Assembly: GCA_027490665.1 (NCBI GenBank)
Contig: JAIXXP010000074.1
Coordinates: 1-46,774 of the forward strand
DNA length: 46,774 bases
DNA from: Cryomorphaceae bacterium
GTDB lineage: Bacteria; Bacteroidota; Bacteroidia; Flavobacteriales_D; Crocinitomicaceae
Direction of reading: 5' to 3'
Shown here: in pieces, positions 1 to 41,394 of the stretch
Layout: each line of letters opens with the position of its first letter
Numbering within the stretch: position 1 is the first letter of the stretch
Made by a program: the position numbers and the translations under genes
The notes under the pieces: model-generated
What the model was told of the DNA's origin: nothing
Databases searched by the model: none
What the model saw: only the letters and a program-made list of their open reading frames with translations

Positions 1-1065
1 AAACATTCCGGGCGGGATCACATTGGCGCCTTTGGCAAAAACTTTACGCCCATTGATTTGAAACACAAATGAAGTGCCCCACTCATCTTTTTCTTGAAGC
101 AATTCTACTTTTCGAATTCCAAAGCAATAAGGGTGTTCTAAAAGGAGCTTTCCATTGGTGTCATAAAATCGCAAGGTGTCGTGATACAAGTGTTGCTCAC
201 CCTGCCCTACTGGCCACCAAAGCTGCGCGTTTGACAATAGTTTGTCCGCGTATAAACTGAAGGATGAAACTTTCGAGGAAGGCTCTGGAATATCAAGTGG
301 GGATTTTTCAGAAATTTCGATATCCGCAAAATAGGTGCTCTTACATACAAGTTTAACTTGCGCTTTTTGAACGATGAAGTTTAAAGAAATCTTGGCTTCA
401 TTGGACTCAGAAATACTTAAGGTATTCACGTGGAGGTTTTCAACGTATACAATTGGTGTAACGCCAATTGTAATTGGATACGCAAAACCAATGGTATTGA
501 GGCGAGGTGCCCAATCCCAGCCAAATTGATATTGCGGTTTGCGTGTTAAAGAAGCCACTTTTGCAGCTCCTACATCATTAGGCGCAGGGTAAGTAAAGGC
601 CTTGTATTGCGTTAATTTTGCATGGTGTTGAACAGGAGATTCGATCTTGATTTCAAGCAAGTTGTACCCACATATGAGGTCTTTTACATCGATCAGAAAT
701 TGGTGGTGTAAAAAGAAATTATCCGTTGTTGCCAATGGCTTCCCGTTCAAGAAAATTTGCGCATAAGTATCGAGGTTTGGAATGTCGAGGCTGAGAGATG
801 ACGCATTAAAAAATGCTTCATTCAAAAAGAATTGAGCTCTAAAATGCCAAGTGTGGTCTTCTATCCATTGGTATTTTGCTTCATTTTCACCGTAAAAAGG
901 ATCGGGTAATTCTCCTGACTCCCAGAGAAATTCCTGGACTGTACCAGCCTGGCCAAACGGTAACCATGATTTTTTGATTGGATGAAAAACCTCCCAATCG
1001 AGCGTAATTTGAGCGGTAATGGAGCTCATCAGCGAAACAAATAAAAGTAGAAGGATCTTACTCAT
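1..1065 (-). CDS. Beta-mannosidase, GH2 family (3' end beyond window)
   Basis: The visible 355 codons start at an ATG at 1065 and stay open to the window edge. A signal peptide (about residues 1-19, ending SSITAQ) predicts export. The GH2 sugar-binding fold follows, with the beta-mannosidase signature RKPQYQFGWDWAPRL near residue 180. Next come a beta-sandwich ending in LWWPVGQGEQHLY and the entry to the catalytic TIM barrel (GIRKVELL, then FAKGANVIPP). Both catalytic glutamates would lie in the missing C-terminal part; family members are usually about 800-850 residues. The enzyme removes terminal beta-1,4-linked mannose, for example Man-beta1,4-GlcNAc of N-glycan cores or mannan oligosaccharides. 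The start lies 1 base after the stop of the glycosylasparaginase gene, so the two are probably translated together. Confidence 0.9.
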   Translation of the reverse strand, partial: MSKILLLLFVSLMSSITAQITLDWEVFHPIKKSWLPFGQAGTVQEFLWESGELPDPFYGENEAKYQWIEDHTWHFRAQFFLNEAFFNASSLSLDIPNLDTYAQIFLNGKPLATTDNFFLHHQFLIDVKDLICGYNLLEIKIESPVQHHAKLTQYKAFTYPAPNDVGAAKVASLTRKPQYQFGWDWAPRLNTIGFAYPITIGVTPIVYVENLHVNTLSISESNEAKISLNFIVQKAQVKLVCKSTYFADIEISEKSPLDIPEPSSKVSSFSLYADKLLSNAQLWWPVGQGEQHLYHDTLRFYDTNGKLLLEHPYCFGIRKVELLQEKDEWGTSFVFQINGRKVFAKGANVIPPGMF

Positions 1066-1066
1066 C

Positions 1067-2056
1067 TTACCAATTGCGGTCAAATTTGGCATCGATAAGC
1101 GCCTCACCCTCGGCGTTGCGCAAAGCAAAATTGAAACCGGCATAAATAGAATAAGCGCCGTAGTTACCCTCTTTGTCTATGGCTAAGAAACCACATTGCA
1201 AGCCAGTAAGGTCTTTGTGTTTGGAAATGATGCGCATACAAGCTTCTTTGCAGGCATCATAAGGGCTGTAGCCGTGGCGCATGAGTTCTACTACCGTATG
1301 GCTGCCCGCTACGCGAACAATGGCTTCGCCCAAACCAGTTGCGGTGGCTGCACCTACTTCGTCATCGACAAACAAACCTGCCCCGATTATCGGTGAATCA
1401 CCTACTCTGCCATGCATTTTGTAGGCCCAGCCACTGGTGGTGCAAGCCCCCGCTAGGTGCCCTTGTGCATCCATGGCGATCATGCCGATGGTGTCGTGGT
1501 TTTCGTGGTTGATCTCGGGTTTCTTGAATAAGTCTTTGTTTTCTTTGCACCATTTTTCGTAGTCTTTCTTGACTTCATCTATGGGCATTTTGGCCGTTGC
1601 AAAACCCTGCTCAAGGGCAAATTTGCGCGCGCCAGCTCCAACGAGCATAACGTGCTGCGTGCGTTCCATAACGGCGCGCGCCACATTGATAGGATGCGCG
1701 ATGCCTTCCAAGAACGCCACAGAGCCACAACGAGAATCGCCGCTCATGATACAAGCATCTAAAGTAACGTGGCCATCGCGGTCTGGGCGGCCACCAACGC
1801 CAACGCTGCGGTTGGTGAGGTCGGCTTCGGTCACCATGACGCCTTTTTCGACCGCATCGAGGGCTGAGCCGCCTTTTTGCAACACTGCCCATGCGCCTTC
1901 ATTGGCTGCCAAGCCATGGTTCCAGGTAGAAAGTACGATAGGTCCTTTGGACTTGCCTTGGTATGATTGCGCCACAATATTAGTCGCTTGACTTGGCTTG
2001 ACTATACTCAGTGCGCCAACGGCTGCACCAAAGCGAATAAACTGTCTTCTTTTCAT
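1067..2056 (-). CDS. Glycosylasparaginase (N4-GlcNAc-asparaginase), Tat-exported
   Basis: This is an Ntn-hydrolase that cleaves the GlcNAc-asparagine link of deglycosylated glycopeptides. The 329-residue sequence closely resembles the characterised Elizabethkingia (Flavobacterium) meningosepticum enzyme along its length. The block HDTIGM at 187-192 holds the predicted autoproteolysis site and nucleophile Thr189; GRVGDSPIIGAGLF and ATATGLGE follow. The N-terminus MKRRQFIRFGAAVGAL is a twin-arginine signal, so the protein is probably exported folded; a tatA-like gene lies at 41902-42276. The start is 4 bases after mltG and the stop 1 base before the beta-mannosidase start, so it sits in the dapF-mltG transcription unit. 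With beta-mannosidase it suggests N-glycan core breakdown. Confidence 0.93.
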   Translation of the reverse strand: MKRRQFIRFGAAVGALSIVKPSQATNIVAQSYQGKSKGPIVLSTWNHGLAANEGAWAVLQKGGSALDAVEKGVMVTEADLTNRSVGVGGRPDRDGHVTLDACIMSGDSRCGSVAFLEGIAHPINVARAVMERTQHVMLVGAGARKFALEQGFATAKMPIDEVKKDYEKWCKENKDLFKKPEINHENHDTIGMIAMDAQGHLAGACTTSGWAYKMHGRVGDSPIIGAGLFVDDEVGAATATGLGEAIVRVAGSHTVVELMRHGYSPYDACKEACMRIISKHKDLTGLQCGFLAIDKEGNYGAYSIYAGFNFALRNAEGEALIDAKFDRNW

Positions 2057-2060
2057 AGGC

Positions 2061-3140
2061 TTATCTATTGCGAAGTTCTGCTGCTAACCAATTTTGAAAG
2101 GCCTTGGCATTTTTAGCGTGTTCAGCACCTGAGGCTGTAAAATTGTGTGTGCCGGAGTAATCTGGTTTGGCACACATAAAAATATAATCGTTTTGATCGG
2201 GGCTCAGCACGGCCTCCACTACACCCACTGGCGGCAAATAAATGGGACCTGGGGGCAAGCCTTTGATTTTGTATGTATTATATGGGCAATCGATGTCGCG
2301 ATGGACGGCCAACAAACGCTGCACGCCCTTTAGTTGATCTCCCCAACAAAATTTGAAAGTAGGATCAGATTGCAATTTGATACCCTGCTTGATTCTGTTC
2401 AAATACAAACCTGCTATAATTGGCCATTCCTCGGCCCTTCTCGACTGCTCCGAATAAACGATACTCGCCAAAGTAACAGCCTCGCTAGGTGCATTCAAAC
2501 CAACCGTTTTTAATTTGGACCTGCGAGCTGGGGTCCAGAAATTTTTGAATTCTTGGGCCATGCGGTCCACAAATTGTTGAGGCGTTTGGTCCCAGTAAAG
2601 ATCGTAGGTGTTCGGAATAAAAAGAGCTGGGAGTTGCTCTAGCGTAAAACCCAAACGCGCAAGCGTCGAGCCATTCTGGAGATAAGCCATCAACTCGGTA
2701 CTGTCTAAATCGAGTTGGTTTTGGAGCTTTCCTGCAAGGTCATTGAGGGTGCGGCAATTTTCAAAGCTTACTTGTACCGATTGCTCTGCATTACCGTTCA
2801 ACTTGCCGTTTATCGTCAAACCATTCCAAATATGGCGATACGCAGTACCCGGCTCGATGACGTATTTACCCGGAGCAATATTGCGCGAATTCATTTCCTT
2901 GTTTGTGCCAACCAATTCAAAGAGGTCTGTATTGGAAATAACGCCTTTTTCTTGAAGCAAACGCGCTACATTTTTAACATCTAAAGGTTGGTCCTTAGCT
3001 GAAAGATAAATTGCGACTGGTGCTGCATTGCTAGACTTTTGAAAAGCAGCGTAGGCATACTTTAATTTTGGAAAAAGTAAAACAGCAGCCCCAAAAAAGA
3101 GGACAACTGCAACTAAAATCAGTTTTTGTTTTTTAGACAT
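2061..3140 (-). CDS. mltG: Endolytic murein transglycosylase MltG (YceG-like)
   Basis: MltG is an inner-membrane lytic transglycosylase that cuts nascent glycan strands and so sets their length. The 359-residue protein has one N-terminal membrane helix (about residues 7-25) and an outward-facing YceG domain. The catalytic block is ASIVYSEQSRRAEEWPIIAGLYLNR, with Glu231 as the expected acid/base, followed by LQSDPT near 256-261. Length is normal for the family. The first 22 bases overlap the end of the GNAT gene. The order dapF, GNAT, mltG fits a shared wall-related transcription unit. Confidence 0.95.
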   Translation of the reverse strand: MSKKQKLILVAVVLFFGAAVLLFPKLKYAYAAFQKSSNAAPVAIYLSAKDQPLDVKNVARLLQEKGVISNTDLFELVGTNKEMNSRNIAPGKYVIEPGTAYRHIWNGLTINGKLNGNAEQSVQVSFENCRTLNDLAGKLQNQLDLDSTELMAYLQNGSTLARLGFTLEQLPALFIPNTYDLYWDQTPQQFVDRMAQEFKNFWTPARRSKLKTVGLNAPSEAVTLASIVYSEQSRRAEEWPIIAGLYLNRIKQGIKLQSDPTFKFCWGDQLKGVQRLLAVHRDIDCPYNTYKIKGLPPGPIYLPPVGVVEAVLSPDQNDYIFMCAKPDYSGTHNFTASGAEHAKNAKAFQNWLAAELRNR

Positions 3141-3649
3141 AGTTGATAAGTAAGTTCGTCAAAATATTCATTTTTGAAACGCAGCCAGTTTTTGCGGGTT
3201 CCGACATGTTCAAACCCTGCTTTTTCAAAAAGAGCAACACTTGCTTGATTGTCGCCGTGTATTTGGCAATATAAATTGCGCAATTCAAGAATTTCCTTGC
3301 AGTATGTACTGAACAACCGCAAAGCTTCAGATGCGTAGCCTTTTCCTTTGTCGGCGTCAGCTGCAATAAGGATACCAACTGCGGCATAACCATGCTTGAA
3401 ATTGAGGTCGTATAAATCAATAACCCCCACCGGGCGGTCTTCTGTTGAGGTTTGGATCACCAAACGCATTTGACCCGACTTACGGATATCAGATTGTTGC
3501 TCAATGAGTTGATGAATATCATAAAGCGAAAACGGTACTTCGGTATTAGAAACCTTCCAGTTGGCCGGGTTGTTTTCCCACATAAATATGGTACTCGCAT
3601 CGTCTTTTTCGACCGCCCGTAAAGTAACCAAACTACCCCTCAAGCTCAT
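3119..3649 (-). CDS. GNAT-family N-acetyltransferase (RimJ/SpeG-like)
   Basis: The 176-residue protein has the Acetyltransf_3 layout: LRAVEKDDAS at the N-terminus, a central strand pair ending VGILIAADADKGKGYASEAL (acetyl-CoA loop, about residues 91-110), then LRNLYCQIHGDNQASVALFEKAGF, which is the usual GNAT motif B. The sequence recalls spermidine acetyltransferase SpeG and RimJ/RimL. The acceptor substrate cannot be read from sequence. It overlaps dapF by 17 bases upstream and mltG by 22 bases downstream, so all three are tightly coupled. A role in wall precursor or ribosomal protein modification would be a guess. Confidence 0.85.
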   Translation of the reverse strand: MSLRGSLVTLRAVEKDDASTIFMWENNPANWKVSNTEVPFSLYDIHQLIEQQSDIRKSGQMRLVIQTSTEDRPVGVIDLYDLNFKHGYAAVGILIAADADKGKGYASEALRLFSTYCKEILELRNLYCQIHGDNQASVALFEKAGFEHVGTRKNWLRFKNEYFDELTYQLCLKNKN

Positions 3650-4418
3650 AAGTTCCGTTATAAACGAGCTTTGCTGGCCCTGTTAAATATACTTCAGTAT
3701 AAGCGTGTTCTGGTTTGCGTTGCCATTGCACCTGTAGTTGTCCACCTTTGGTTACAACCTTGACAGCACCTTTTTGAAGATCCTGAAGTTGGGCATAAAC
3801 CAAGGCGGCAGCAGTTACGCCGGTTCCACAAGAAAGTGTTTCATTTTCTACACCGCGTTCGTAGGTGGCCACCCGAATGCCATCTGCTGTGATTTCCATC
3901 AAATTGACATTGATGCCGTCTTTTTGAAAGCTTTCGCTATAACGTATGCTGCGGCCAACTTCTAAAACGTGCTCGTGGGTGTGTAAGTCGTCGAGTTGCA
4001 CGTAATGAGGAGATCCGGTTTGTACTACATATGCGTTTTCCAAACATTGAATTGGGTCAACGTCTGACATCTTGAGTTTCACTTCTTCTTCGCAAAGCCA
4101 GGCTTGGTGTGTGCCATCGATAGCTAGAAAGGTAGTCTGAAACGAAGGTAGTAAGCCCAACTTAGCCGCAAAAGCAACCGCACAACGCGCACCATTTCCG
4201 CAAAAAGATTGCGTGCCGTCGGCGTTGTAATAAACCATTTCAAAGTCATAGCCCTGACACAACCCAATGGAGATGAGCCCGTCGGCACCTATGCCAAATT
4301 TGCGGTCACATAGTTCTTGAATGTCAGCAATAGACAAATTGTCATAAATACCGGACGTGTTGTTAAGCATGATGAAATCATTGCCCGTACCCTGATATTT
4401 GAAGAATGATAGTGTCAT
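3633..4418 (-). CDS. dapF: Diaminopimelate epimerase
   Basis: DapF converts LL- to meso-diaminopimelate for lysine and peptidoglycan. I place the start at 4418 (MTLSFFKYQGTGNDF, 261 residues) rather than at an upstream in-frame ATG at 4475, because family members begin at this motif and a -7 promoter element (4429-4436) lies between the two starts. The two catalytic cysteines are visible: Cys73 in NADGTQSFCGNGARC and Cys197 in ETLSCGTGVTAAA. Asn13 and Glu192 blocks are also in place. It is the first gene of the run dapF, GNAT, mltG, glycosylasparaginase, beta-mannosidase, and is divergent from degP. Confidence 0.95.
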   Translation of the reverse strand: MTLSFFKYQGTGNDFIMLNNTSGIYDNLSIADIQELCDRKFGIGADGLISIGLCQGYDFEMVYYNADGTQSFCGNGARCAVAFAAKLGLLPSFQTTFLAIDGTHQAWLCEEEVKLKMSDVDPIQCLENAYVVQTGSPHYVQLDDLHTHEHVLEVGRSIRYSESFQKDGINVNLMEITADGIRVATYERGVENETLSCGTGVTAAALVYAQLQDLQKGAVKVVTKGGQLQVQWQRKPEHAYTEVYLTGPAKLVYNGTYELEG

Positions 4419-4428
4419 TGCGGTCGAA

Positions 4429-4436
4429 CAAAAATA
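4429..4436 (-). promoter_or_regulatory. dapF: -7 promoter element for dapF
   Basis: Read on the minus strand this is TATTTTTG, an exact match to the Bacteroidota -7 consensus TAnnTTTG. It ends 10 bases before the chosen dapF ATG and predicts a very short leader. No well-spaced -33 TTG is clear. Confidence 0.6.
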
Positions 4437-4490
4437 GTTGAATATTCGATACCAATTCTTAACAAAATTTAACATTTTTCAAGCAATTTT

Positions 4491-38442: not shown

Positions 38443-40097
38443 TGGAATTTGAGTGCTTTAATTGGTGAAATGCGCGAAACCACCCTACTTGGCAACAACA
38501 AAGCAACCATACAAGTAGAGAAAGTGAGGGCATTGATGAAAATAAAATTCCAGAAATTGAATTCGATAGGCACTGCGTCGAGGTAATATACTTCCGGATT
38601 GAGTTTGATGAACCCATATTGATATTGCAACCAACTGAGCACAATTGCCAGTGTGTTACCGATGAGCAAACCGCGCAGCAACAAATAAGCTGCTTGCCAT
38701 AAAAAGATCCGCCGAATAGAGCGATTGTTGGCACCAAGAGCCTTTAGCAAGCCCACAAAAGAAGTTCTTACTACAATTAAAACGAGCACTGCAGAACCTA
38801 CATTAATGATTCCGATTATAAGCATTAAAAATATGATAATCAATACATTAAAATCTAAAAAATGCAACCATGAAAATAGATCAGCTTCAGTATCTTGAAT
38901 ATTACTAACCTGCAATAAATGCTGATTCACTGGCCGCATTTCAACTGCATCTTTGAGCGCTTGCTCTACCTTAGGCAGTGCAGCAAGATTGGAAACCGAC
39001 ACTTCAAAACCGGAAATGAAATGAGCTGCAGTACCCGTGCCATCTTGAAAACGAAAGCGTAGCGGTCCTTTTTGAGTCGCGAATACCTGCTCTTCTAAAC
39101 CATCGACCAAACAAACTGGAGTTCCATTTTCAAGCTGTAAATCCGTGTAAGATGAGACACCAGGGGCCTTGATTTCTATTTGCGCGCTATCGATAAGCTT
39201 TGTAAGCCTGTTGCCGTTTTGATAGCGGTAGGCGTAAACTTTAAGAGTGGTATCCTTCAAGGAAGTAAAGCGGTGTGCCGTGTAGATGTCCTTACCTAAG
39301 CCCCAATCGAATAACAAATTAGAAGCATCTCCTTCGACCTCGACAGTGATTAAGAATTGTGCTTTCCCAGCGAGTTTGGGGCGCAGAGATATCTTTGTGC
39401 CGTTGTCGCTCATTTGCTGTACCAACGCTAAATTTCCGAAGACCAATTTTTGATCGTACTCCAAAAAACCAGTATTGTAGATCCCGACAACTTTGAGCTT
39501 TTTCAAAAGCGGTTGCTGCTTAATGTGATATGCAGAAACCTCATCTTCTAGCTTGATATTTAGCTTTTTACAAATTTCCAATGAAAGTAATACTTCATTA
39601 TTATTTTGCTTTTTAGGGAGCCTTCCTTCAACGAGATTTGAACGGATAAATGACCAATCATATTGCGGATCAACCCCTTTGAGCATAAGGCCGAGCATGT
39701 CCTGACGCTGCACGAGCGAATCTTGACCATTAGCCATCTGGATGGTGTCGTTGAAGCGCGTAGATTGCAATAAAAGTGGCTTAAATGCAACCGGGCTAAT
39801 AGCGCTTACACCAGGGGTTTTTGAGAGTTCAGGAAGAAATGGAATGCGGCGATCGAGGGCTTCTGCTTCAAAAATATGTGCGGATCCGGCCTTCGAAATG
39901 AAAAGTGGAGCGTTAAAACCCGTAATTTTGTCCTTGATTTTTTGTTGAAAACCGCGCACGATTGCCAATGTCAAGGAATTGACTAATATCGCAAGCGCAA
40001 TGCTCACCACTGAAATCCGGAGCACAGGCCTCGATACCCGAAGCCCGAGGTGCTTTTGACGAATCAGCCTAGAAGATATGAAGCGCTCAAATGACAA
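38439..40097 (-). CDS. FtsX/LolC-E family ABC transporter permease
   Basis: The permease has one membrane helix near the N-terminus (about 25-47), a large periplasmic domain, and three helices in the last 150 residues, as in LolC/LolE and MacB. I place the start at a TTG at 40097 (552 residues): the only upstream ATG (40202) precedes the -7 element at 40117-40124, and relatives begin at LxFERFISSRL. The periplasmic part is about 130 residues longer than the ~410-residue Bacteroidota LolE-like proteins I know. The ATPase partner is not adjacent. The likely role is lipoprotein release from the inner membrane. Confidence 0.82.
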   Translation of the reverse strand: MSFERFISSRLIRQKHLGLRVSRPVLRISVVSIALAILVNSLTLAIVRGFQQKIKDKITGFNAPLFISKAGSAHIFEAEALDRRIPFLPELSKTPGVSAISPVAFKPLLLQSTRFNDTIQMANGQDSLVQRQDMLGLMLKGVDPQYDWSFIRSNLVEGRLPKKQNNNEVLLSLEICKKLNIKLEDEVSAYHIKQQPLLKKLKVVGIYNTGFLEYDQKLVFGNLALVQQMSDNGTKISLRPKLAGKAQFLITVEVEGDASNLLFDWGLGKDIYTAHRFTSLKDTTLKVYAYRYQNGNRLTKLIDSAQIEIKAPGVSSYTDLQLENGTPVCLVDGLEEQVFATQKGPLRFRFQDGTGTAAHFISGFEVSVSNLAALPKVEQALKDAVEMRPVNQHLLQVSNIQDTEADLFSWLHFLDFNVLIIIFLMLIIGIINVGSAVLVLIVVRTSFVGLLKALGANNRSIRRIFLWQAAYLLLRGLLIGNTLAIVLSWLQYQYGFIKLNPEVYYLDAVPIEFNFWNFIFINALTFSTCMVALLLPSRVVSRISPIKALKFQ

Positions 40098-41394
40098 ATT
40101 AAAAAGTTTACAAGTCCAAAAATACACAAAGGTTTTGGCATCTATTGCGCTGCTCTCATTTTTGCTCAACTCTTGTGGCTTATTTCCTGCAAAGGCTTTC
40201 ACGCCAACACCCGTTCATTTTGCCGAAACAATAGTCATTGAGGAGGCGTCTAACGCATTAGTAGATCATGCTGAAATTACACCGCAGCAAAAACCTAACC
40301 TTGCTGCTCCTCAACTCGGTATAGACCGCTTACATCTTTTTGTCGATTCTTTAGCAGGAAAACGCATTGCGGTAGTCGCGAACCAAACATCAGTCGTAAA
40401 AGGCGTTCATCTAGTGGATACCTTACTTTCATTGAAACTCAATGTAGTAAAGGTATTTGCCCCTGAGCACGGTTTTAGAGGCGATGCCGATGCTGGTCAG
40501 CACATCGGCCACAGCACCGACGACAAAACAGGGCTTCCCTTGGTTTCGCTTTATGGCTCCAACAAAAAACCAACCGACCAACAACTTGCCGATGTAGATA
40601 TCGTTCTTTACGACATTCAAGACGTCGGAGTGCGTTTCTACACCTATATTTCCACCTTACATTACGTGATGGAAGCCTGCGCCGACAACAGTAAGCAATT
40701 AGTTGTTTTAGATCGACCCAATCCAAATGGTCACTACATCGACGGCCCGGTTCTTGAATCGCAGTACAAATCATTTGTCGGGATGCACCCTGTGCCTATC
40801 GTCTACGGCATGACCATCGGTGAATACGCCATGATGATCAACGGCGAAGGCTGGTTGCACGACAGCAAACGCTGCCAACTTTGGGTCATTCCTTGCAAAA
40901 ACTACAAACACAAACTACCTTATAGCCTTCCGGTGGCGCCTTCTCCTAATTTGCGTACAGACGCCGCAATTGCGCTGTATCCTAGCCTTTGCTTATTTGA
41001 AGCCACTACAGTTAGTGTGGGTCGTGGCACCGACAAACCTTTCGAAATTTACGGACATCCAAAATTCCCGGTTGGCAGCTATCAATTCATGCCTATCCCG
41101 ACCGTTGGCGCAAAAACGCCCCTACACATGAATAAAATTTGCCAAGGTATAGAACTTACCCAAAGCAAAAGACCTTATCAAATCAATCTGAATTACCTCA
41201 TTGAAGCCAAAGAACTACTCGGAGACACCAATGTTTTTATAGACCAAACTGCGTTTTTTAACCGTCTAGCCGGTACCGCCACTTTAAAGGAACAACTAGA
41301 CAAAGGTTGGTCTGCAAGAGAAATCAGGGCCACATGGAAGCCCGGGCTCGACGCTTTTTTACAAACGCGCAGCAAATACTTACTCTACGAGTAA
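40078..41394 (+). CDS. namZ: Exo-beta-N-acetylmuramidase NamZ-like lipoprotein (DUF1343, GH171)
   Basis: NamZ-type enzymes release MurNAc from the non-reducing ends of peptidoglycan fragments. The 438-residue protein has a lipoprotein signal ending FLLNSC (Cys33) after an unusually long N-region; a later start cannot be excluded. The DUF1343 motifs are GKRIAVVANQTS, VKVFAPEHGFRG with Glu130/His131, DIQDVGVRFYTYISTL, VLDRPNPNG, and FEATTVSVGRGTDKPFE. It overlaps the divergent permease start by 20 bases. MltG and MurA in the same window act on the same polymer. No TAnnTTTG match was found; TGCTTTTG near 40050 is one base off. Confidence 0.87.
   Translation: MKRSNDKLKSLQVQKYTKVLASIALLSFLLNSCGLFPAKAFTPTPVHFAETIVIEEASNALVDHAEITPQQKPNLAAPQLGIDRLHLFVDSLAGKRIAVVANQTSVVKGVHLVDTLLSLKLNVVKVFAPEHGFRGDADAGQHIGHSTDDKTGLPLVSLYGSNKKPTDQQLADVDIVLYDIQDVGVRFYTYISTLHYVMEACADNSKQLVVLDRPNPNGHYIDGPVLESQYKSFVGMHPVPIVYGMTIGEYAMMINGEGWLHDSKRCQLWVIPCKNYKHKLPYSLPVAPSPNLRTDAAIALYPSLCLFEATTVSVGRGTDKPFEIYGHPKFPVGSYQFMPIPTVGAKTPLHMNKICQGIELTQSKRPYQINLNYLIEAKELLGDTNVFIDQTAFFNRLAGTATLKEQLDKGWSAREIRATWKPGLDAFLQTRSKYLLYE
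40117..40124 (-). promoter_or_regulatory. -7 promoter element for the permease-Smr unit
   Basis: TATTTTTG on the minus strand matches TAnnTTTG exactly, 19 bases before the TTG start. It lies inside the 5' coding part of the divergent NamZ gene. Confidence 0.5.

Follow-up and report, generated by a model that had tools for sequence, protein, structure and literature searches.

The glycosylasparaginase gene and the beta-mannosidase gene (referred to as GGA and MAN, respectively) at the left end of the window, that is, the whole 46,774-base stretch of DNA analysed here, which made up an entire contig (C102 of genome G000), probably form part of a glycosylasparaginase-type route dismantling the core of Asn-linked glycans in a lysosome-like manner, as judged at the sequence level from family membership, catalytic residues, conserved linkage, and co-occurrence. 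Such a route would be a variation on bacterial N-glycan systems already described.

Gene pair GGA–MAN and its source genome

The source genome had 2.79 Mb in 139 contigs and was 92% complete; the sample names of its near relatives hinted in part at lakes and ponds. The left end of the window displayed the minus-strand gene order dapF–GNAT–mltG–GGA–MAN start, and the features considered in the window were as follows:

1–1065, minus strand: MAN, putative GH2 beta-mannosidase, N-terminal 354 codons, truncated by the contig end
1066: single base separating the GGA stop codon from the MAN start codon, from the sequence
1067–2056, minus strand: GGA, putative glycosylasparaginase of 329 aa, from Pfam, PDB matches, and residues
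2061–3140, minus strand: mltG, context gene directly upstream of GGA
3119–3649, minus strand: GNAT acetyltransferase gene, context
3633–4475, minus strand: dapF (diaminopimelate epimerase), context
40078–41394, plus strand: gene whose product resembled by eye a DUF1343/NamZ-type exo-muramidase

The stop codon of GGA extended down to 1067 and the start codon of MAN up to 1065, and thus the gap between these two minus-strand genes was one base, as an earlier note on this DNA had described; its placing of dapF and mltG upstream of the pair was likewise borne out by the dapF–GNAT–mltG block. mltG stayed upstream of GGA in several relatives where MAN did not adjoin, and the dapF/mltG linkage was taken as lineage context. 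The export signals claimed for both products agreed with the appearance of their N-termini by eye: (i) that of GGA looked like a Tat-like signal, an RR–x–hydrophobic pattern being present within the first 60 residues in 117 of 119 GGA loci (raw pattern count), and (ii) that of MAN looked like a Sec-like signal.

Sequence features of GGA

GGA belonged to the Pfam family Asparaginase_2 (E 3.1e-67); its best PDB matches were glycosylasparaginases (371 bits), the best L-asparaginase/isoaspartyl peptidase reaching 129 bits, and it also matched the solved aspartylglucosaminidase 1apy by sequence. The 371-bit match to the solved bacterial glycosylasparaginase 1p4k/3ljq, which we take to be that of Elizabethkingia meningoseptica, extended over 283–285 residues, and the two had the same catalytic and binding residues. 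The sequence comparison was also applied to 119 GGA loci drawn from 121 sources (the window plus L061 to L180, of which L066 and L068 contributed MAN only; some genomes occurred twice). In the numbering and with the residue roles that we assume for the Elizabethkingia enzyme (W11, D151, T152, T170, R180, D183, T203, and G204), the equivalents W45, D188, T189, T207, R217, D220, and G241 were found in all 119 loci, while the T203 equivalent (T240) was conserved as T in 117 loci and replaced by S in the other 2. The position of Phe13 in the Elizabethkingia enzyme, presumably a pocket residue and not taken as strictly defining, was occupied by His in 113 of the 119 loci, the window among them, by Phe in 4, and by Ser and Pro in 1 each. 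T152 is presumably the nucleophile, an Ntn-hydrolase Thr nucleophile following HD being what we regard as the hallmark of glycosylasparaginases, and self-cleavage of GGA before Thr189 is predicted from homology. With these residues, and being nearer to glycosylasparaginases than to isoaspartyl peptidases, GGA would be classified as a glycosylasparaginase (EC 3.5.1.26).

Sequence features of MAN and genes past the left edge

The window part of MAN harbored Glyco_hydro_2_N2 (E 2e-40), and its best PDB matches were named beta-mannosidase. The remaining 469 codons of MAN opened another contig of the source genome, C18 (G000:C18:2-1408, followed by the stop codon); this C-terminal half had 2vjx as its best solved match (E 3.6e-85) and contained GNNE and EYGFQSFPE. 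Both halves of MAN aligned to 2vjx/2je8, presumably BtMan2A of Bacteroides thetaiotaomicron, and these two motifs were common to MAN and 2vjx/2je8. GNNE, whose Glu we take to be the acid/base, was present in 73 of 73 near-full-length MAN relatives, and the second motif E(Y/F/W)G–Q, whose Glu is presumably the nucleophile, in 71 of 73 (members below 70% of the median length were left out). MAN would thus be classified by sequence as a GH2 beta-mannosidase, with GH2 N2 and GH2 domains followed by a TIM barrel carrying both Glu motifs.

In C18 (L192, 5660 bases), MAN was followed by a DUF2805 gene (name taken from the close relative in L082), a BtuB-like TonB receptor gene (675 aa), a trpS-like gene on the opposite strand, and an acyltransferase-like gene, the last two called by eye:

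L192, 1516–3898, plus strand: DUF2805 gene and BtuB-like TonB receptor gene, 3′ of MAN on C18, also there in close relatives

The order DUF2805–TonB receptor–trpS-like was repeated in close relatives, e.g., L082, L085, and L086. The alpha-mannosidase, hexosaminidase, or SusCD genes that had been suggested past the left edge were therefore a wrong guess, the genes left of the window on C18 including no glycan genes besides the rest of MAN. A reading as a SusCD-type polysaccharide utilization locus was rejected: no SusC/SusD pair was found at the GGA–MAN locus, the receptor downstream of MAN was BtuB-like, and the two SusD genes of the genome were located on C139 and C65.

Conservation of the GGA–MAN pair

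The set of relatives comprised 120 genomes, the source genome included, with cut-offs of E 1e-50 for GGA and E 1e-20 for MAN; GGA was found in 99 and MAN in 92 of them. In the window's genus, 65 of 73 genomes harbored both genes, which were (i) at most 250 bases apart on one strand in 48 genomes, (ii) about 0.9 kb apart in 1, and (iii) unlinked in 16, in several of which the MAN match was a distant copy with 30–35% identity. In the other genera of the order, both genes were present in 23 genomes: adjacent in none, within 10 kb in 7 (on opposite strands in 1), and unlinked in 16. One GGA and one MAN position were counted per genome; GGA occurred in two pieces in G006, G044, and G066, and the piece on the MAN contig was used; G081 was scored as lacking MAN (beyond the E cut-off), yet a MAN with 25% identity adjoined its GGA (L070).

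That 48 of the 65 genomes of the genus harboring both genes retained this arrangement argues that the pairing is more than chance. The earlier note had named two observations that would speak against its reading: lack of other glycan genes nearby, which was indeed what the source genome displayed, and absence of the pairing from related genomes, which was contradicted by its widespread occurrence.

Fuller clusters in other Bacteroidota and the scattered set in the source genome

In other Bacteroidota, GGA was located in fuller clusters: (i) in L096, GGA was followed by GH20 (E 9e-116), CutC (E 3e-67), and MAN genes, with GH92 (E 1e-182) and a GluP/FucP/NagP-type permease gene on the opposite strand (Pfam E values); and (ii) in L161, GH20 stood ahead of GGA, followed by CutC, MAN, and GH92. 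Clusters additionally contained a ROK kinase in L062 and alpha-fucosidases in L172, while GGA was accompanied by few or none of the other set members in the Roseivirga and Aureispira loci (gene orders from 119 of 121 sources). GH20 and GH92 fell in one cluster in the gene orders; their lengths, together with Pfam hits of representative members, separated the two.

The source genome harbored three GH92 genes (C110, C1, and C107), one GH20 gene (C72), and one CutC gene (C91), and no other set member lay beside the GH92, GH20, and CutC genes in the stretches read; the GH92 gene on C107 had an amylase-like neighbour by eye. Of the families GH18, GH26, GH85, GH5, GH130, and GH38, the search of this 92% complete genome covered GH18 and GH26 and gave no match to either. 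It also contained two further loci:

L256 (contig C89), 475–3255, minus strand: PNGase-F-like secreted protein of 926 aa with a laminin-G domain and a secretion-system sorting tail, matching PNGase F at E 1.5e-10 except for the first 78 residues of the latter
L194 (contig C65), 3179–14372, plus strand: consecutive NagP/GluP-like permease, SusC/SusD pair, and GH3 genes, forming a glycan locus of its own

Of the GH92, GH18, GH20, and SusC/D genes for which a search had been proposed, the genome thus had three GH92, one GH20, and two SusD genes, none beside the pair, while GH18 was not found. The set was dispersed over the chromosome in the window's lineage, with only GGA and MAN linked; the gene order suggests that a fuller cluster may have decayed there.

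Co-occurrence and linkage of the five genes

In the 47 genomes that belonged to the order but not to the genus, all five genes (GGA, MAN, CutC, GH92, and GH20) were present in 22, none in 13 (9 of which belonged to the two families f8 and f13), and a mixture in 12; genomes without a match row were counted as lacking the gene, consistent with the tallies. CutC–GH20 had the lowest p value of the ten gene pairs (both in 27, CutC alone in 0, GH20 alone in 1, and neither in 19; Fisher 2.9e-12, kinship ignored), and GGA–GH92 ranked second (30, 0, 2, and 15, respectively; p 1.8e-10, kinship ignored). CutC and GH20 lay at most 6 kb apart in 22 of 27 genomes, 20 of these on one strand, and the same distance held for CutC–MAN in 14 of 24 and for CutC–GGA in 12 of 25 genomes; the CutC and GH20 positions came only from the other genera of the order and G012. 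Inside the genus, the pairwise signal was weak (p from 0.001 to 0.03 for four pairs and at least 0.03 for six) because most genomes have most genes.

The analysis was also applied to 109 genomes evenly sampled across the phylum, 32 of which had CutC. In the 30 CutC genomes outside the window's genus, GGA was located within 5.3 kb in 14 (directly adjacent on one strand in 11), at least one of GGA, GH20, GH92, and MAN was located within 7.2 kb of CutC in 19, and none of the four was found in the stretch fetched in the remaining 11; a broken CutC (L255) was counted within the 30, and the positions from the genome search were used for L229, L249, and L251, where CutC was missed by the ORF caller. 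The presence of GGA near CutC in 14 of 30 genomes is far beyond chance at an assumed background of 0.5–2% per 20-kb stretch, kinship ignored.

CutC as a linked member of the set

The CutC of the source genome scored above the PF03932 cut-off and had a TIM-barrel fold, and it was of the same family as the solved CutC structures (3iwp from human, 1twd, 2bdq, and 4r9x) by Pfam, sequence, and fold. Residues E7, R26, E28, C30, G37, T39, R60, H122, R123, D126, and H199 (own CutC numbering) were invariant in 24 Bacteroidota CutC sequences, and one residue was kept at each of these positions in 52–54 of 54 CutC sequences of the 120-genome set; they look like an active site. The CutC model (mean pLDDT 95) matched CutC structures at Z 28–33, followed at Z 15–20 by MJ1099, hexulose-6-phosphate synthase, deoxyribose-phosphate aldolase, PdxJ, HisA/PriA, and TrpF; these modelled fold neighbours are TIM barrels mostly handling phosphorylated substrates, a likeness that does not establish function.

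In two genomes of family f9, G114 and G119, a sugar-1-phosphate nucleotidyltransferase domain (PF00483; E 5e-7 and 2e-9, respectively) preceded CutC within one fusion protein, encoded beside GH20:

L257, 6329–8569, plus strand: CutC fusion with PF00483
L258, 7983–9521, minus strand: CutC fusion with PF00483

A sodium:solute symporter gene lay upstream in both loci, and a GHMP/galactokinase-like kinase gene was also present in G119 (L258).

No export signal was seen by eye in CutC, which would take part in the catabolism of N-glycan sugars inside the cytosol. It is quite possible, if somewhat short of probable, that CutC works there as a TIM-barrel enzyme whose substrate is a sugar phosphate originating from sugars of the N-glycan core, either GlcNAc or a GlcNAc/mannose derivative, in the same pathway as GGA, MAN, GH20, and GH92 in Bacteroidota and beyond (Xanthomonas nix; see below). 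The pathway link is suggested by gene neighbourhood and co-occurrence, and the sugar-phosphate part by the fold neighbours and the two nucleotidyltransferase-domain fusions. The open-licence PMC literature searched yielded no report of CutC with glycosylasparaginase in Bacteroidota or of a CutC role in glycan breakdown; CutC is also the name of the choline TMA-lyase, which may explain literature matches from Akkermansia. CutC, which is conserved from bacteria to humans, is annotated under copper homeostasis; this label originates from E. coli and, according to PMC6538781 citing Guo et al. 2014 on MicL, is not supported there.

Proposed route and alternative explanations

The order of steps, the substrate, and the locations given here are what we infer from the gene set. 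The starting material would be glycoproteins of eukaryotes, perhaps algae, from which proteases, perhaps with the PNGase-F-like secreted protein, would free glyco-asparagines or glycans; exported GH92 enzymes would remove alpha-mannose, MAN the core beta-mannose, and GH20 the outer GlcNAc; GGA, exported through its Tat-like signal and self-cleaved, would convert GlcNAc-Asn to aspartate and 1-amino-GlcNAc, and the latter would fall apart to GlcNAc and ammonia; monosaccharides would be taken up via a NagP/GluP-type permease and then phosphorylated, with CutC acting as a cytosolic step. The route is supported by the presence of all five genes and the PNGase-F-like gene in the source genome, by the lack of a GH26 match there, and by the independent parallel of Xanthomonas nix. 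Counting against it are the lack of glycan genes beside the pair in the source genome, the unlinked state of the pair (16 of the 65 genomes of the genus and 16 of the 23 from other genera that have both genes), the His at the Phe13 position of GGA in 113 of 119 loci, which may bear on its exact specificity, and a co-occurrence that may partly mirror kinship and a lifestyle of sugar degradation in general (f8 and f13 account for 9 of the 13 genomes lacking all five). The feeding on eukaryotic glycoproteins proposed in the earlier note is supported in part: the conserved pairing, the clusters that also hold GH20, GH92, and a sugar permease (in some cases a sugar kinase as well), and the three GH92 genes, the GH20 gene, and the PNGase-F-like gene of the source genome would fit it, while the lack of glycan genes beside the pair and of a GH18 match would not.

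It is very unlikely that GGA is mainly an isoaspartyl peptidase/L-asparaginase clearing damaged periplasmic peptides near the cell-wall genes dapF and mltG: the Pfam family is common to both enzyme types and the order dapF–GNAT–mltG–GGA was kept where MAN did not adjoin (e.g., L063, L064, L133, and L134), but the 371 versus 129 bits favour glycosylasparaginase, the W11, R180, and D183 equivalents were present in every one of the 119 loci, and the fuller clusters placed GGA with glycosidases, not with dapF/mltG. If MAN instead served plant/algal beta-mannan and GGA were an unrelated exported amidase, the two genes would have come to lie close by chance, an arrangement then fixed in a single lineage. 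This is quite unlikely, since GGA and MAN recurred with GH20, GH92, and CutC in clusters of several families and no GH26 was found in the source genome (of GH26, GH5, and GH130, the search covered GH26); pointing towards beta-mannan are the unlinked state of the pair in many genomes and the best solved match of the MAN C-terminal half, 2vjx, presumably BtMan2A. A preference of BtMan2A for short manno-oligomers (PMC9232400) points the same way.

The set would also be explained by degradation of GlcNAc-/mannose-rich material in general (chitobiose, peptidoglycan, or glucuronomannan) with N-glycans as a side substrate. This is unlikely: GGA and MAN jointly fit the Asn-GlcNAc2-Man core, and we know of no role of GGA in chitobiose, peptidoglycan, or glucuronomannan breakdown, which counts against it. 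In favour of general degradation are the exo-muramidase-like protein at 40078–41394 of the window and the other uses of GH20 and GH92; GH92 is reported from glucuronomannan clusters of marine flavobacteria (PMC9723552), which also counts against the N-glycan route. That route nevertheless remains the probable reading of the pair.

Comparison with known systems

Lysosomal glycoasparagine degradation involves AGA, MANBA, HEXA/B, and alpha-mannosidases. The N-glycan route proposed here would share with it equal activities at the same N-glycan core bonds, but it differs in that the bacterial enzymes would be exported, GH92 replaces GH38, and CutC is linked. The GH38/GH5_18/GH20 N-glycan core operon of Cutibacterium acnes (PMC6160142) is similarly an alpha-mannosidase, beta-mannosidase, and hexosaminidase cluster for Man3GlcNAc2, while its enzymes belong to other families and are cytoplasmic. 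The terms asparaginase, aspartylglucosaminidase, and CutC did not occur, by term search, in the main texts of this operon paper, a review of bacterial N-glycan breakdown (PMC10154615), or a study of plant N-glycans in Bacteroides (PMC9522356).

The nearest published parallel is the Xanthomonas nix system: PMC6718126 places its N-glycan genes and cutC (XAC3091) in a common region and interprets cutC as a copper-resistance gene, and PMC5700972 names an asparaginase (XAC3092) near nix; XAC3091 and XAC3092 would be neighbours, going by their numbers. The likeness lies in beta-hexosaminidase (nixG), beta-mannosidase (nixH), alpha-mannosidase (nixK), and cutC in one region, whereas nix is found in Gammaproteobacteria and includes TonB receptor and fucosidase/galactosidase genes. 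Co-location of cutC with N-glycan genes is thus already in print for Xanthomonas, a report that supports the pathway link of CutC and lowers its novelty.

The recurrence of the set around glycosylasparaginase across Bacteroidota would mean a bacterial lysosome-like route that also handles the last Asn-GlcNAc bond; the set would moreover tie CutC, a protein shared with humans, to sugar catabolism and thereby make its function testable.
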